Assembly (NCBI RefSeq): GCF_017301335.1
Contig: NZ_CP071247.1
Coordinates: forward strand, 1,922,001-1,986,000
Direction: 5' to 3'
Source: Marinobacter salinisoli
GTDB lineage: Bacteria > Pseudomonadota > Gammaproteobacteria > Pseudomonadales > Oleiphilaceae
DNA: 64,000 bases
The notes under the pieces are model-generated. The model was not told the DNA's origin, ran no database searches, and was given only the letters and a program-made list of their open reading frames with translations. Both the position numbers and the translations under genes were made by a program. Positions 2,337-12,310 of this stretch are shown in pieces; the stretch's first letter is position 1, and each line of letters opens with the position of its first letter.

Positions 2337-4013
<1,677 letters not shown>

Positions 4014-4034
4014 GGTCAATTCCTCGTGGTCCGT

Positions 4035-4241
4035 TCAAGCTGTCCGGAGCGGTGTCACAGCTACTGGCATCAGCTCAACACCTGCCCCGGCATGCAGTTT
4101 TTCCAACTGAAACTGAAGCATAGCAACTGGCCGTGAACCCTCCAATGTTCGCATCCGGTGTAGATGCTCAGCGAGTGAGTCCCATACCGTTGCCGAGACA
4201 CGGAGACCGCGCATCCGTGTTCTCAGAAGTGATCCGAAGAG
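4035..4241 (-). pseudogene. 5'-truncated ilvM-like ACT-domain remnant
   Basis: Open frame of 68 codons between the stop of the sigma-54 regulator (4242-4244, same frame) and a TGA at 4035-4037. Its translation aligns without gaps to residues 34-83 of the intact IlvM at 10332-10610, with about 24 of 50 identities by hand. Shared blocks are R-R-G-R, TLEG-RP, ML and QLEKLH. The first 30 or so residues, holding the first ACT strand, are missing and replaced by the regulator's 3' end. An ATG at 4214 could still give a 59-residue product. The stop lies 21 bp before the ilvD ATG, like an old ilvM-ilvD operon junction. It is probably a relic, but the frame is intact, so expression as a small protein is not excluded. 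Confidence 0.8.
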
Positions 4242-6176
<1,935 letters not shown>

Positions 6177-6369: not shown

Positions 6370-6504
6370 TTAGAGAACCTCAGAAGGAGCGCCGGAAGCT
6401 TTGGCGGGTATGCCTGAACGCGAGTGTTGCTCGCATTGGGGCGAAACCTGTCAGTTGCACCGAAATGGCGCGGTGAATGACCAAAAAGATAAAGGAGCGT
6501 GCCC

Positions 6505-7923
6505 ATGACCATGAACAGCCTCGGAAACCCGTTCGATGGTGATCAGTCCCTGATTCACTCGAAAACCTGCGAATGCCCGACCTGCCAGCCAGGCACCGGT
6601 GCAAGCTTGTTGATGCCAGCAACCGAAAAGGTGCAGGAAGCCAAAGCCTCGGATGCGCCGACCGATTCGGAGGCCATGCTGGATCGTGCCATTGAGAGCG
6701 CGGTGGTTCGTTCGGTATTCGGCCACAACGATTTTGATCGCCGCAGTTTCATGAAAATGATGGGCGCCGGTTCCGCCGCTGCGTTGCTGGGCAGCGTTTT
6801 CCCGATGGACAAGGCCAAGGCGGCTGTGAAGGAATCCCTGGGGAAGCTGGAGAAAACCAAACTGAACGTCGGATTCGTGCCGATCACCTGCGCCACGCCC
6901 ATCATCATGGCCCACCCGATGGGCTTCTATGAGCGCTACGGCCTTGATGTCACCGTTACCAAAACCGCCGGTTGGGCGGTCGCCCGGGATAAATCCCTGG
7001 CCGGCGAATACGACGCCTCGCACATGCTGACCCCCATGCCCCTGGCGATGACCATGGGCGCCGGTTCCACCCCCGAGCCTTACATCATGCCGGCGGTTGA
7101 GAACATCAACGGTCAGGCCATCGTGCTGCACGTTGACCACAAGGACAAGCGAGATCCGAAAGACTGGAAAGGCTTCAAGTTCGGTGTGCCGTTCGAATAC
7201 TCCATGCACAACTTCCTGCTGCGGTACTACCTGGCCGAGAACGGAGTGGATCCGGACAAAGACGTGCAGATTCGGGTGGTTCCACCGCCCGAGATGGTGG
7301 CCAACCTGCGCGCCGGTAATCTGGATGGCTATCTGTCGCCAGACCCGTTCAACCAGCGTGCGGTGTGGGAGAAAGTCGGCTTCATCCACATCCTGACCAA
7401 GGACATCTGGGAAGGCCATCCGTGCTGCGCCTTCGCCTGCAGCCAGAAGTTCGCGACCGAGAACCCGAATACCTACGGCGCCCTGCTGCGTGCAATCATC
7501 GACGCCACCCAGTACTCCCAGAGCACCGAAAACCGTAAGGAAATCGCCGAGGCTATTGCCCCGAAGAATTACCTGAACCAGCCGGTGCCGGTGATTCAGC
7601 AGGTGCTGACCGGTTACTACGCCGATGGCCTGGGCGAGGTGCAGAACGTGCCCGATCGCATCGATTTCGATCCGTTCCCCTGGCACTCGATGGGCGTGTG
7701 GATACTGACCCAGATGAAGCGTTGGGGTTATATCGAGGGCGACGTGGACTACAAGGCCATTGCGGAGCAGGTCTATCTGGCCGGCGAGACTGGCAAGCTG
7801 ATGCAGGAGATGGGCTACTCCGCGCCGAGCGAAACCTACAAGACCCACACCATCATGGGCAAAACCTTTGATCCGGCCAAACCGGAAGAGTATGCCCGCA
7901 GCTTTGCCATCGGGAGGGTGTAA
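6505..7923 (+). CDS. NrtA/CmpA-family ABC substrate-binding protein, probable cyanate uptake, Tat-exported
   Basis: Periplasmic binding protein of 472 residues, first gene of a transporter-cynS operon, so probably captures cyanate (CynA-like). The ATG at 6505 follows AAAGGAG by 7 nt; a GTG six bases earlier is less well placed. A twin-arginine signal DRRSFMKMMGAGSAAALLG places the two Arg at 79-80, followed by the NrtA-type fold (NVGFVPITCATPIIMA, then GVPFEYSMHNFLLRYYL). Odd: a 78-residue extension precedes the Tat motif and carries a Cys-X-Cys-X2-Cys cluster (22, 24, 27) in KTCECPTCQPG. Nitrate, nitrite or bicarbonate are alternative substrates of the family; cynS makes cyanate the best guess. 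Confidence 0.9.
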   Translation: MTMNSLGNPFDGDQSLIHSKTCECPTCQPGTGASLLMPATEKVQEAKASDAPTDSEAMLDRAIESAVVRSVFGHNDFDRRSFMKMMGAGSAAALLGSVFPMDKAKAAVKESLGKLEKTKLNVGFVPITCATPIIMAHPMGFYERYGLDVTVTKTAGWAVARDKSLAGEYDASHMLTPMPLAMTMGAGSTPEPYIMPAVENINGQAIVLHVDHKDKRDPKDWKGFKFGVPFEYSMHNFLLRYYLAENGVDPDKDVQIRVVPPPEMVANLRAGNLDGYLSPDPFNQRAVWEKVGFIHILTKDIWEGHPCCAFACSQKFATENPNTYGALLRAIIDATQYSQSTENRKEIAEAIAPKNYLNQPVPVIQQVLTGYYADGLGEVQNVPDRIDFDPFPWHSMGVWILTQMKRWGYIEGDVDYKAIAEQVYLAGETGKLMQEMGYSAPSETYKTHTIMGKTFDPAKPEEYARSFAIGRV

Positions 7924-7925
7924 CC

Positions 7926-8753
7926 ATGGCGTCCCTGAACGTTCGGGCTGCTGTCGTTTCCATCACGTTCCTGATTCTGGTGCTGGGCATGTGGGAGATG
8001 TCTGCCCAGGCACCGGAAGCCGAAACGGCGATGACCGAGTACGAGCGTCTGATGGGCGGGGCTGATCAGGAGTCCCGGGTGCCACCCCCGTCCAAGGTGA
8101 TTGCCTTGGCGTGGGAGGAATTGTCTGACCCCTTCTACGATGCGGGTGCCAACGACAAGGGCATCGGCATTCAGTTGGCCTACTCGATCTATCGGGTGTT
8201 GACCGGGTATCTGGCGGCCATGGCTATCGCCTTGCCAATTGGATTTCTGATCGGCATGTCGCCGCTGATGTACAAGGCGCTGAATCCCTACATCCAGGTC
8301 TTGCGGCCCATCTCGCCGCTGGCCTGGATGCCACTGGCCCTGTTCATCATTCAGGATTCCGATGCCTCGGCCATCTTCGTGATTTTCATCTGCTCCATCT
8401 GGCCCATGTTGCTCAATACCGCTTTTGGTGTGGCCAACGTGCGGGAGGACTGGATCAACGTGGCGCGCACCCACGAGTTGGGGCCGCTACGCACCGCGCT
8501 CACCGTGATCCTGCCCGCAGCGGCGCCGACGATTCTCACCGGCATGCGCATCTCCATCGGTATTGCCTGGCTGGTGATTGTGGCCGCCGAAATGCTCGTG
8601 GGTGGCACTGGCATTGGCTACTACGTGTGGAACGAGTGGAACAACCTGGATCTGGCGAGTGTGATCTTCTCCATCCTGATGATCGGGGTGGTCGGCATGG
8701 TGCTGGATCTGATTCTGGGCCGGGCGCAGCGCCTGGTGGAGTACAAGGAATGA
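7926..8753 (+). CDS. NrtB/CynB-type ABC transporter permease
   Basis: Inner-membrane permease of 275 residues in the binding-protein-dependent (BPD_transp_1) family. An N-terminal membrane helix (about 7-27) is followed by a roughly 55-residue stretch outside the membrane and then hydrophobic segments. The EAA-type loop reads NVREDWINVARTHELGPLRTALTVILPAAAPTI, shown here only as landmarks within about 170-200, and would dock the ATPase. Its ATG lies 2 bp after the binding-protein stop, with GGGAGG inside the preceding coding end, so translation is probably coupled. With its neighbours it forms a cynA-cynB-cynD-cynS-like order. Confidence 0.92.
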   Translation: MASLNVRAAVVSITFLILVLGMWEMSAQAPEAETAMTEYERLMGGADQESRVPPPSKVIALAWEELSDPFYDAGANDKGIGIQLAYSIYRVLTGYLAAMAIALPIGFLIGMSPLMYKALNPYIQVLRPISPLAWMPLALFIIQDSDASAIFVIFICSIWPMLLNTAFGVANVREDWINVARTHELGPLRTALTVILPAAAPTILTGMRISIGIAWLVIVAAEMLVGGTGIGYYVWNEWNNLDLASVIFSILMIGVVGMVLDLILGRAQRLVEYKE

Positions 8754-8804
8754 ACGGGTGGGGCGGCCATGGGTCGTCCCCAATCCTCCTGAGGGAGAAC
8801 AGTT

Positions 8805-9701
8805 ATGAGTAAGTCCTTTCTGGAAGTCGATGGCTTGTCCAGGGTATATCCGGACGGGCAGGGCGGCGAGCTGACGGTATTCGAGGACATTCGCTTCAGC
8901 CTGGAGAAGGGCGAGTTTGTCTGCATTATCGGGCACTCGGGGTGCGGAAAATCCACCATCCTGAATGTGCTTGCCGGCCTGGACGAAGCCTCCGAGGGCA
9001 ACCTCGTGATGAGTGGCAAAGAGGTCAAAGGGCCGAGTCTGGACCGGGGCGTGGTGTTCCAGAACTACAGTCTGCTGCCCTGGAAGTCGGCCCTGAAGAA
9101 CATCACCTTTGCCGTGCAGGCTCGCTGGCCCGCCTGGTCGAAGGACCAGGTACGTGAACACAGCGAACGTTACCTGAAAATGGTTGGGCTCGATCACGCC
9201 ATGCACCGCAAACCGTCACAGTTGTCCGGCGGTATGCGCCAGCGGGTGAGTATCGCCCGGGCCTTCGCCACTCAGCCGGAACTGCTGTTGCTGGATGAAC
9301 CCTTCGGCGCGCTGGATGCGCTGACCCGGGGTGTTATTCAGGATGAGTTGGTGAAGATCTGGGAAGAAACCCGTCAGACGGTATTCATGATTACCCACGA
9401 TGTGGACGAGGCGATCCTGCTGTCGGACCGCATTTTCCTGATGTCCAACGGCCCCAATGCCCGCATTGCCGAGAGTGTCAGTGTCGAGCTGCCTCATCCT
9501 CGGGCCCGGGCGACGATTTTCCAGAACCCTGCTTATCACAAGATCCGGGATTACCTGGTGGACTTCCTGGTGAACAGAAGCAGTACCGCGCTGCCTGAGA
9601 AGAACGGCGCGCCCCGTGCTGTAGCGCCTGCCAGCGGCGTCACCCCGAGCCCGGATGACAACGCTCAATCTGCATCGCCCGCCAAAGCGGTCAATGCCTG
9701 A
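8805..9701 (+). CDS. NrtD/CynD-type ABC transporter ATPase
   Basis: Cytoplasmic ATPase of 298 residues energising the adjacent permease. Seen: Walker A GHSGCGKST (about 46-54), Q-loop VFQNYSLLPW, signature LSGGMRQR, Walker B ELLLLDEPFGALD and switch histidine MITHDVDEA. A tail of about 45 residues rich in Ala, Pro and Ser follows the catalytic domain, with no recognised domain. The start follows GAGGGAG, 51 bp after the permease stop. Together with the NrtA-type and NrtB-type partners it completes a nitrate/cyanate-class importer. Confidence 0.93.
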   Translation: MSKSFLEVDGLSRVYPDGQGGELTVFEDIRFSLEKGEFVCIIGHSGCGKSTILNVLAGLDEASEGNLVMSGKEVKGPSLDRGVVFQNYSLLPWKSALKNITFAVQARWPAWSKDQVREHSERYLKMVGLDHAMHRKPSQLSGGMRQRVSIARAFATQPELLLLDEPFGALDALTRGVIQDELVKIWEETRQTVFMITHDVDEAILLSDRIFLMSNGPNARIAESVSVELPHPRARATIFQNPAYHKIRDYLVDFLVNRSSTALPEKNGAPRAVAPASGVTPSPDDNAQSASPAKAVNA

Positions 9702-9728
9702 ACCATCGCAACAAGTGAGGATACAAGC

Positions 9729-10172
9729 ATGATGAACAAGGAACTGATGACGGCGAAGATTCTGGAAGCAAAAGTCACCAAGGGAATGACCTGGGAAGCG
9801 ATTGCCGAGGCGGTTGATATGTCGCCGGTATTCACCACCTCGGCGTGCCTTGGCATGAACAGCATGGCGGAGGACAAGGCCTTCGCGCTGTGCGAGACCC
9901 TCGGGCTCGACAAGCAGGTGGCGGAAGCCTTGCAGAGTTGTCCGAAGAAGGCGTGGGACGGTGCCGTCCCGCAGGACCCGCTCATTTACCGCCTGTACGA
10001 AATCGTGGGGGTTTACGGGGATACCCTGAAAGAAATCATTCATGAGAAATTTGGTGACGGCATCATGAGTGCGATCGATTTCTCAATGGAGGTGGATAAG
10101 GAAGAGAATCCGAAGGGGGACCGGGTGGTGGTGACCATGAACGGGAAGTTCTTGCCTTACAAAGCATGGTGA
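9729..10172 (+). CDS. cynS: Cyanate hydratase (cyanase)
   Basis: Cyanase converts cyanate and bicarbonate to carbamate and CO2, and carbamate breaks down to ammonia. At 147 residues it is close to the family's 150-156. Seen: an N-terminal helical DNA-binding-like domain (MTWEAIAEAV) and the C-terminal catalytic part. Arg88, Glu91 and Ser114 (YRLYEIVG, MSAIDF) sit eight residues before the known E. coli catalytic Arg96, Glu99 and Ser122, in the same spacing. Last gene of the operon, 27 bp after the ATPase. Hairpin repeat copy B follows and may terminate transcription. No cynT-type carbonic anhydrase gene is adjacent. The first two codons are both ATG, so the start may be 9729 or 9732. Confidence 0.97.
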   Translation: MMNKELMTAKILEAKVTKGMTWEAIAEAVDMSPVFTTSACLGMNSMAEDKAFALCETLGLDKQVAEALQSCPKKAWDGAVPQDPLIYRLYEIVGVYGDTLKEIIHEKFGDGIMSAIDFSMEVDKEENPKGDRVVVTMNGKFLPYKAW

Positions 10173-10191
10173 TTTGACGGAGTCCGGGTGC

Positions 10192-10272
10192 GGGGAGGTC
10201 GGTCTTTTCTTTTGGGAAAAGAAACTCGCTGCGCTCGGACAGCTTTTCCCGGCAGAAAAGACCGACCTACCC
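10192..10272. repeat. 81-bp hairpin repeat, copy B
   Basis: Second copy of the element at 2192-2272, same orientation, same 81-bp length, about five substitutions. Arms GGGAGGTCGGTCTTTTCTTT... and ...GCAGAAAAGACCGACC enclose a loop with CTCGCTGCGCTCGGACAG. It lies between the convergent cynS and ilvM 3' ends, so it can terminate both transcripts. A separate perfect hairpin (GGAGGA-CGTT-TCCTCC, 10307-10322) lies between it and the ilvM stop. Confidence 0.85.
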
Positions 10273-10331
10273 ACACCCTGCAGAGGTTTGCTTTCGCTTG
10301 CAGACCGGAGGACGTTTCCTCCTGAAAAACC

Positions 10332-10610
10332 TCAGGCGGTTTTGGTCCTTGCCATCGGCTCCTGCAGTACCACTTCCGCTACCGTATGCAGCTTCTCCAG
10401 CTGTGATTTGAGCATGCTTATTGGCCTGGTGCCTTCCAGGGTCATGGCAATGTTCAGCTGCTCGCCCGCTGCATCCACGGCCATCTGAACAATCCGGAAA
10501 CCCCGAATACGAATCACCTGGCAGAGCCGCTCCATGGCAGCGGCTTCGTGGGTCATGGTGCAGGCGATGGCGTAGCTGCCGTTGGTGCTTGGGTGCGTGG
10601 TCGGATTCAT
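10332..10610 (-). CDS. ilvM: Acetolactate synthase small (regulatory) subunit, IlvM type
   Basis: A single ACT domain of 92 residues, the size of E. coli IlvM and well below the roughly 160 of IlvN/IlvH-type subunits in many bacteria. The ACT core runs about 12-83: YAIACTMTHEAAAMERL strand-helix, VIRIRGFRIVQM, TLEGTRP, then SQLEKLH. Its ATG overlaps the ilvG stop as ATGA (10607-10610), so the subunits are translationally coupled. It would stabilise IlvG and tune feedback inhibition. A truncated relative lies at 4035-4241, on the far side of the cyanate genes. Confidence 0.9.
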   Translation of the reverse strand: MNPTTHPSTNGSYAIACTMTHEAAAMERLCQVIRIRGFRIVQMAVDAAGEQLNIAMTLEGTRPISMLKSQLEKLHTVAEVVLQEPMARTKTA

Positions 10611-12310
10611 GCAACGTGCTCCTTGTTGGCGTTTCGGTTGCGCTGGGATTCATCAATCATGTCGCGGTTGCTGGCGCCGGGTTTCACGATCGGCCAGACG
10701 TTCTCTTCCCGGGCAATGGCGACGTGCAACAGCATGGGGCCGTCGTAGGCCAGGATGGTTTCGATGCCGCGGCGGATCTGGTCGGTGCGGTCAATGTGCA
10801 GGGCAGGAATGTCGAAGGCGCGGGCCATGGCAACGAAATCCGGGTTATCGTCCAGATCAATGTGGCTTTCCCGGTTGTTGTAGAACAGCTCCTGCTGCTG
10901 GCGAACCATGCCCAGGCACTGGTTGTCCAGAATGATCAGTTTCAGCGGCAGCCGATACCGGCGAATGGTGGCCAGCTCCTGAGCATTCATCATGAAGGAG
11001 CCGTCGCCGGCGACGTTGATCACGGTGCTGCCGGGACTGGCAAACTGGGCACCGATAGCCGCAGGCAGGCCAAAGCCCATGGTGCCCAAACCACCGCTGG
11101 ACAGGTGGTGGCGGGGGTGGTCGAACTGGTAGTACTGGGCGACCCACATCTGGTGCTGGCCCACATCACAGGCAATGACGGTGTCATCCGGTGCGATGCG
11201 GGACAGCTGGCGGACGAAGGCAGGGCCGGTAATCGGGGCCAGGGGTTCTTCGTTGTCGGCGGTGTTGAAGCCGCCGGTGGCGTGCCAGGTCCGGCACTGT
11301 TTACGCCAGCCTTCAATCGACAGGGGCTTTGCCCGGAACTCTCTGGCGAACTCCGACAGGATGCCATTCAGGTCACCGCGCAAGGCGAGGTCGGCTGGTC
11401 TCAGTTTGCTGATCTCGGCCGCGTCAGCATCGATGTGAATCACGCGGGCGTTGGGGGCAAAGGTATCCAGCTTGCCCGTGGCGCGGTCATCGAGGCGCGC
11501 GCCGATGATCAGTAACAGGTCGCATTCATCCACCGCCCGGTTGGCAGCACGGGAGCCGTGCATACCCAGCATGCCCAGATGGTTCGGGTCGTGTTTGCCG
11601 CCGTTGCCTATGCCCTTGAGCGTGACCACGCTGGGCAAAGCGGAGGCGTCGGCAAACCGTCGAAAAACGTCTTCACAGTGGGCCAGACTGACGCCGCCCC
11701 CGCTGTACAACAGCGGCTTCTTCGCGTTGCGCAGCATAGTAACCGCCGTGGACAGATCCGGCGGTACGGTCTGGACCGGTGGCGCCGGATGTTGTGTCGC
11801 GACTGGCTTGGCTTCGGTCAGTAAGACGTCTTTGGGAATGTCGATCCACACCGGCCCGGGGCGGCCGGTCTGAGCCAATTCAATAGCTTCTGCCATGATG
11901 CCGGGCAGTTCGTCGGCAGAGTCGACCAGGTAGGAATGTTTGACGATTCCCAGGGTCATGCCCAGAACGTCGGTTTCCTGGAACGCATCGGTGCCAATCA
12001 GGCCGGAAGGCACCTGGCCGGTGATCACCAGCATGGGGATGGAGTCGCGGTGGGCGTTGGCAACGCCGGTGATCAGGTTGGTGGCACCGGGGCCCGAGGT
12101 GGCGATGCAGACACCGATCTCGCCACTGGCACGAGCGTAGCCGTCGGCGGCCAGGGCACAGGCTTGTTCATGGCGGCACAGCGCGTGCTCCACATTCCCG
12201 TCGTCCACTAGCGCATCATAGAGCGGCATGATGCAGCCGCCGGGGTAGCCAAACACCGTGCTGATGTTGTGCTGGTGGAACGCGTCCAGAATGTGTTGTG
12301 CGCCGTTCAT
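10607..12310 (-). CDS. ilvG: Acetolactate synthase large subunit, IlvG type
   Basis: ThDP- and FAD-dependent acetolactate synthase of 567 residues, condensing pyruvate with pyruvate or 2-ketobutyrate at the first common step of branched-chain amino acid synthesis. Seen: GYPGGCIMPLYDAL, the catalytic Glu region RHEQACALAADGYARA, the Phe/Gln-rich AFQETD segment and the ThDP/Mg motif GDGSFMMN with its downstream Asn (LDNQCLGM). Start ATG at 12308-12310 with AAAGGA upstream. Expression is probably set by the leader peptide and attenuator at 12344-12495. It is followed directly by ilvM. The neighbouring ilvEDA genes of the enteric operon are not here, except ilvD beyond the cyanate block. Confidence 0.97.
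   Translation of the reverse strand: MNGAQHILDAFHQHNISTVFGYPGGCIMPLYDALVDDGNVEHALCRHEQACALAADGYARASGEIGVCIATSGPGATNLITGVANAHRDSIPMLVITGQVPSGLIGTDAFQETDVLGMTLGIVKHSYLVDSADELPGIMAEAIELAQTGRPGPVWIDIPKDVLLTEAKPVATQHPAPPVQTVPPDLSTAVTMLRNAKKPLLYSGGGVSLAHCEDVFRRFADASALPSVVTLKGIGNGGKHDPNHLGMLGMHGSRAANRAVDECDLLLIIGARLDDRATGKLDTFAPNARVIHIDADAAEISKLRPADLALRGDLNGILSEFAREFRAKPLSIEGWRKQCRTWHATGGFNTADNEEPLAPITGPAFVRQLSRIAPDDTVIACDVGQHQMWVAQYYQFDHPRHHLSSGGLGTMGFGLPAAIGAQFASPGSTVINVAGDGSFMMNAQELATIRRYRLPLKLIILDNQCLGMVRQQQELFYNNRESHIDLDDNPDFVAMARAFDIPALHIDRTDQIRRGIETILAYDGPMLLHVAIAREENVWPIVKPGASNRDMIDESQRNRNANKEHVA

Follow-up and report, generated by a model that had tools for sequence, protein, structure and literature searches.

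A truncated ilvM beside ilvD in Marinobacter salinisoli probably marks the import of ilvD from a related lineage

The window, i.e. the whole stretch of 64,000 nucleotides of Marinobacter salinisoli DNA that was analysed, carries two groups of ilv genes with a cyanate (cyn) block between them. On the minus strand, ilvD (2337-4013), encoding a dihydroxy-acid dehydratase, scores above the cut-offs of the NCBIfam models TIGR00110 and NF002068; its start is taken as the ATG at 4013, the start in the open reading frame list being a TTG at 4019. A leader with a ribosome binding site (4014-4034, minus) and then a short ilvM-like stub separate ilvD from a PAS-PAS sigma-54 activator gene recognised by Pfam (4242-6176, minus), which adjoins the cyn operon. 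The cyn block (6499-10172, plus) comprises three ABC transporter genes (6499-7923, 7926-8753 and 8805-9701) and cynS (9729-10172), assigned with Pfam and NCBIfam models and in an order common to relatives. Beyond it lie an intact ilvM (10332-10610, minus; Pfam ACT_5), encoding the acetolactate synthase small subunit, and ilvG (10607-12310, minus; Pfam), encoding the large subunit. The transporter permease and ATPase exceed the cut-offs of nitrate transporter models, and the binding protein has a twin-arginine signal; the one pointer to cyanate as a possible transporter substrate is the neighbouring cynS.

Positions 4035-4241 (minus), located 21 bp upstream of ilvD and directly past the stop codon of the sigma-54 regulator, correspond to the 3' two-thirds of an ilvM gene. 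The frame is open from just past the regulator stop to a TGA at 4035-4037 (minus), which on its own is no proof of coding, as 6.7% of base shuffles of the stub are also open. When aligned with the product of the intact ilvM, 27 of the 56 aligned residues are identical (pairwise blastp E 4e-14), and the alignment score of 113 compares with a maximum of 48 in 2000 shuffles. Profiles built from IlvMs of the genus were searched against 2067 six-frame peptides from the window and from the locus of the sister species (L033; genome G115). The stub was detected by a profile of G020-type sequences (G020, G038, G099 and G015; E 6e-17, 58 bits), by a class B/C profile (6e-15), by a class A/N profile (4e-14) and by a profile of the two intact class D IlvMs (3e-11, 40 bits), the classes being those of gene order defined below. 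The stub thus has the significant ilvM homology expected of an ilvM pseudogene, and its description in the sequence-only reading, as an in-frame, 5'-truncated relative of the intact IlvM with its stop 21 bp from ilvD, is borne out.

The curated models see merely a trace of the stub, i.e. E 0.17 and 12.1 bits with Pfam ACT_5 versus a cut-off of 27 (intact IlvM, 1.4e-15 and 57.3 bits), and E 0.029 and 14.3 bits with the NCBIfam IlvM model (NF008362) versus a cut-off of 68. Since the intact IlvMs of the window (61.0) and the sister (57.1) also miss the latter cut-off, only Pfam discriminates between stub and intact protein. A protein database search with the stub returned one candidate and no protein at E <= 0.001; a pattern scan of genome contigs, from which the window's own and near genomes were possibly absent, returned 181 matches, none of them a relative.

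The stub is homologous to IlvM (NF008362; ACT_5, PF13710) from about residue 33 to the C terminus, its alignment spanning profile positions 38-98 only. Unlike IlvM, it lacks the first third, including the ERLCQVVR region that is kept in IlvMs of the genus, and therefore does not encode a complete ACT domain. At the DNA level, homology to an intact ilvM (that of G020) starts near 4217. On the basis of the profile and DNA alignments, the remnant is placed at 4035-4217 (minus; ~60 codons plus stop), and the right junction occupies the ~24 bp from the regulator stop to the first recognisable ilvM homology (4218-4241, minus), a segment outside the local DNA alignment to ilvM. This placement supports the proposal of a breakpoint where the regulator ends. 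The possibility that the regulator itself was truncated at the breakpoint was rejected, its C terminus being like those of relatives. In one search the IlvM match ran through the regulator stop into its last codons (39%, 85 residues, one TGA); because the regulator end resembles the ends of relatives' regulators, this was taken as over-extension.

Among 124 genomes of the genus, including that of the window (G000), 114 gave a match in a search with the stub, and only two of the 124, i.e. those of the window and the sister, had a second ilvM piece. Wide loci were compared for 103 relatives and the window, 20 of the 124 genomes being left out, and were assigned to classes A-D, for which the labels and thresholds are our own and in which some stretches stop at contig ends. 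Class A (cynS in the stretch, no ilvD) contains 41 of the 104 loci, 32 with the regulator and 29 with cynA; in one of its members (G076) cynS is ~7 kb away from ilvM. Class B (ilvD-ilvM-ilvG, no cynS seen) contains seven loci, in one of which (G118) the stretch beyond ilvD is not covered, and class C (cyn, then ilvD-ilvM-ilvG) contains nine, eight of them with the regulator. Class D consists of the window and G115, and 45 loci have neither order. The usual order in the lineage of the window species (14 of the 17 genomes in the housekeeping tree described below) is cyn beside ilvM-ilvG, with ilvD elsewhere. In the class C loci (L081, L086, L120, L123, L130, L132, L133, L139 and L142) the cyn block lies beyond ilvD-ilvM-ilvG on the ilvD side and, where acat is covered, between acat and ilvD; cyn and ilvD thus co-occur at the locus in two orders within the genus.

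The conserved genes of the locus and elsewhere give conflicting trees. In the rpoB+gyrB tree (29 rows; 30 genomes were asked for, with G099 having no usable gene, G065 no gyrB, G082 and G113 no rpoB and G088 a partial gyrB), a split supported at 100/100 separates 12 rows (class B, class C and G015) from 17 (14 class A, two class D and G061), class D thus falling on the side of class A. The ilvG+ilvM tree (30 rows) likewise places class D inside class A, in groups of 17 rows (100/99) and 10 rows (98/97); whether D is nested within A hinges on midpoint rooting, whereas the side of the split on which D falls does not. In the ilvD tree (31 rows), by contrast, class D groups with B/C (14 rows, support 95/90). 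Forcing D with B/C in the rpoB+gyrB tree gives an AU p of 0.006, and forcing D with A (and G061) in the ilvD tree is rejected with an AU p of 0.0005, the group lists for these tests having been partly completed after the trees were seen (G061 and G015 were added, G011 was left out). In terms of pairwise identity, with G115 set aside, acad, cynA, cynB, cynD and ilvG are closest to class A, with margins of 0.009 to 0.025 over the best B/C sequence, and ilvM with a margin of 0.038. The identities of acat, the regulator and cynS do not separate A from C (best values 0.836/0.831, 0.755/0.753 and 0.825/0.825, respectively).

These trees bear on the proposal, made in the sequence-only reading, that an ilvG-ilvM-ilvD operon was split when the cyanate block inserted into it, with part of an ilvM remaining next to ilvD. 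The order ilvD, stub, regulator, cyn, ilvM, ilvG seen in the window is the expected outcome of such an insertion, and the unsplit order does exist in the class B loci. However, cyn beside ilvMG without ilvD is the usual arrangement in the lineage of the window species, which the housekeeping tree places on the class A side; the ilvM-ilvG pair in the window is of class A type, in contrast to the B/C type of ilvD and the stub; D is outside B/C in the ilvG+ilvM tree, a result that contradicts an insertion; and the site occupied by ilvD in the class A genomes G008, G050 and G007 lacks it in both class D genomes. The conflicting trees thus lead us to reject the insertion, which we consider very improbable. 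The part that moved was most likely ilvD with its ilvM tail, not the cyanate block.

Comparison of the stub DNA with 104 ilvMs identifies a type of donor. The ilvMs nearest to the window stub are those of G020, G099 and G038 (scores 66, 58 and 54), all in the class B/C clade, and the same three are nearest to the sister stub (G099 and G038, 74 each; G020, 56). The window's own intact ilvM ranks 100th for the window stub and 89th for the sister stub, and that of G115 ranks 72nd for both; the idea that the stub is a second copy, arising by duplication of the window's own ilvM, is therefore rejected. The protein tree of the stub was uninformative (end branch 10). In G020, G038 and G099 the ilvM-to-ilvD gap is ~21 bp, matching the stub-to-ilvD gap in the window. 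Thus, the arrangement is like that of the class B/C ilvG-ilvM-ilvD clusters (e.g. L034, L035 and L139), with the stub in the position that ilvM has there, but differs from them in that the donor ilvG and the 5' part of ilvM are missing and a regulator-cyn block lies upstream.

The native site of ilvD is empty in class D. In two class A genomes, G008 and G050, conserved gene blocks flank ilvD on both sides, and in G007, where a shorter stretch is covered, one of these blocks is seen beside it. Both G000 and G115 have kept the two flanking blocks with no ilvD between them, and each has a single ilvD match at E <= 1e-100, i.e. the copy beside the stub in the case of the window. The stretch of the class B genome G038 has one of the blocks and no ilvD. 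An ancestor with both a linked and an unlinked ilvD, of which the window lineage kept the linked copy, would explain the position of ilvD beside an ilvM stub without any transfer. Such hidden paralogy appears very unlikely, however, in that it requires several independent losses, two ilvD matches at E <= 1e-100 were found in only one of the 124 genomes (G087, as partial pieces on different contigs), and the depth between the A and B/C ilvDs is like that of orthologues.

In xenologous gene displacement an orthologous gene is replaced by a horizontally acquired copy. For ilvD, the gene tree conflicts with the housekeeping tree and the alternatives are rejected, a neighbour linked to it in the donor clade has been carried along, and the native copy has been lost from its site in both G000 and G115. 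On the basis of the tree conflict, the proximity of the stub to the second clade and the empty native site, we therefore conclude, with a probability of about 0.8, that ilvD was imported, together with the ilvM 3' end adjoining it, beside a pre-existing cyn-ilvMG cluster and that the native ilvD was then lost. In the ancestor of the window species and its sister, the locus would have read acat-regulator-cynABDS-ilvM-ilvG and ilvD would have been located elsewhere. About 2 kb of DNA, containing ilvD and the ilvM 3' end, would have come from a relative of the ilvD-ilvM-ilvG clade and become linked to acat on one side and the regulator on the other. Loss of the native ilvD would have followed, leaving the imported copy as the sole ilvD found and the ilvM stub as a hitch-hiking pseudogene. 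We infer the mechanism of joining, the left junction and this order of events; the left junction is placed only to the interval from acat to ilvD (2167-2336). Because the class D ilvD is sister to the B/C group and not nested within it, the donor is not pinned. The case differs from displacement in place in that the new ilvD is at another locus and is accompanied by a readable scrap of the donor's neighbour gene.

A variant that overlaps with this import of a short piece is the arrival, between acat and the regulator, of a complete donor ilvG-ilvM-ilvD segment, from which ilvG and the 5' part of ilvM were later deleted as redundant. The end product and the tree conflicts would be the same, but the variant requires one extra event, and the ~24 bp between the stub and the regulator stop show no trace of the rest of such a segment; we regard it as a possible, though less favoured, course of events.

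Comparison of the window with the sister informs on the fate of the stub after import. Relative to the 4-fold sites of eight neighbouring genes, which are 60% identical (904/1499), the 5' half of the stub is less conserved (47%, 41/87 sites, p 0.018), the core shows a modest excess of conservation (73%, 55/75 sites, p 0.028), the tail is 71% identical (32/45 sites, p 0.16) and the leader is 88% identical (14/16 aligned sites, p 0.036). In the sister stub a gap of one base midway along the alignment puts the 5' half out of frame with the 3' half, such that it matches IlvM in one frame over the last 37 residues only, and the reading frame is thus not conserved in the nearest relative, as it should be for a functional IlvM. 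The third-position GC of the stub is 0.49, as against 0.73 in ilvM and 0.73 to 0.78 in the neighbours. These observations are best explained by a pseudogene in decay whose 3' end is partly kept.

It had also been suggested that a surviving ACT half-domain of 59 residues might still bind acetolactate synthase; the rival considered here is a product of 59-68 residues. The frame in the window is indeed open, the PVAMLQ-QLEKLH stretch is readable, the 3' frame in the sister is open for 64 codons, and pN is below pS (0.194 and 0.295, respectively, over the 33 codons in a shared frame), a ratio of ~0.66 that, with so few codons, is not clearly neutral. The missing first third of IlvM, however, comprises the initial strand and helix of the ACT fold, residues have changed in the part that the sister keeps, the third-position GC is unlike that of ilvM, and the database search gave no protein at E <= 0.001. 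Given the frame shift in the sister and the weak constraint at the protein level, a working half-domain is highly improbable.

Instead, the 3' part of the stub may have been kept as the leader of the imported ilvD, and this role, perhaps including that of a promoter region, is the most likely reason for its persistence, as opposed to the coding of a peptide. The best-kept stretch, an 18-mer at 4113-4130 (minus) that is identical in the sister's remnant and in the G020 ilvM, contains a putative extended -10-like motif, TGCTATGCT. A tentative extension, which we think possible but doubtful, is that, in the donor clade, the ilvM 3' end also serves as a promoter or leader of ilvD, such that ilvD and the stub would form a portable, self-expressed cassette. 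If so, this would explain both the replacement of ilvD by a copy at a new locus and the retention of the 3' part of the stub while the protein decays. The ilvGMEDA operon of Escherichia coli has an internal promoter, which would be a precedent for signals in or near ilvM serving downstream genes; unlike in that operon, a consensus scan of 3980-4400 in the window for sigma-70 promoters and terminators detected none. Codon usage for PVAMLQ in ilvMs with and without a linked ilvD was ambiguous, with T-ending codons also occurring where no ilvD is linked. Literature searches on Marinobacter with ilvM, and on the ilvGMEDA internal promoter in combination with ilvM, found nothing.

The proposed event is of an ordinary kind, i.e. 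one in which a relative's copy takes the place of a gene, but its scar is unusually readable, in that a gene scrap would preserve evidence of the donor cluster and also of the breakpoint in a transfer that, at a different locus, replaced the only ilvD found in the genome. The case would show how, within one genus, a gene of biosynthesis can be relocated and rewired; it is also a warning against reading every truncated neighbour gene as the mark of an operon split by insertion.

Two further observations concern the locus in the genus. In G065 (L252 and L121) the ilvD match stops at residue 465 and contains one TGA, and cynA is in three pieces, these being either assembly errors or real breaks. 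A palindromic element of 80-90 bp is present in the gap between acat and ilvD (2187-2274) and, 93% identical, in the gap between cynS and ilvM (10187-10274). It has six matches at four separate places in the genome, both window sites included, and resembles a terminator-like repeat dispersed in the genome, lying close to the left border of the imported piece; by eye, similar-looking palindromes are present 3' of the regulator in several relatives.
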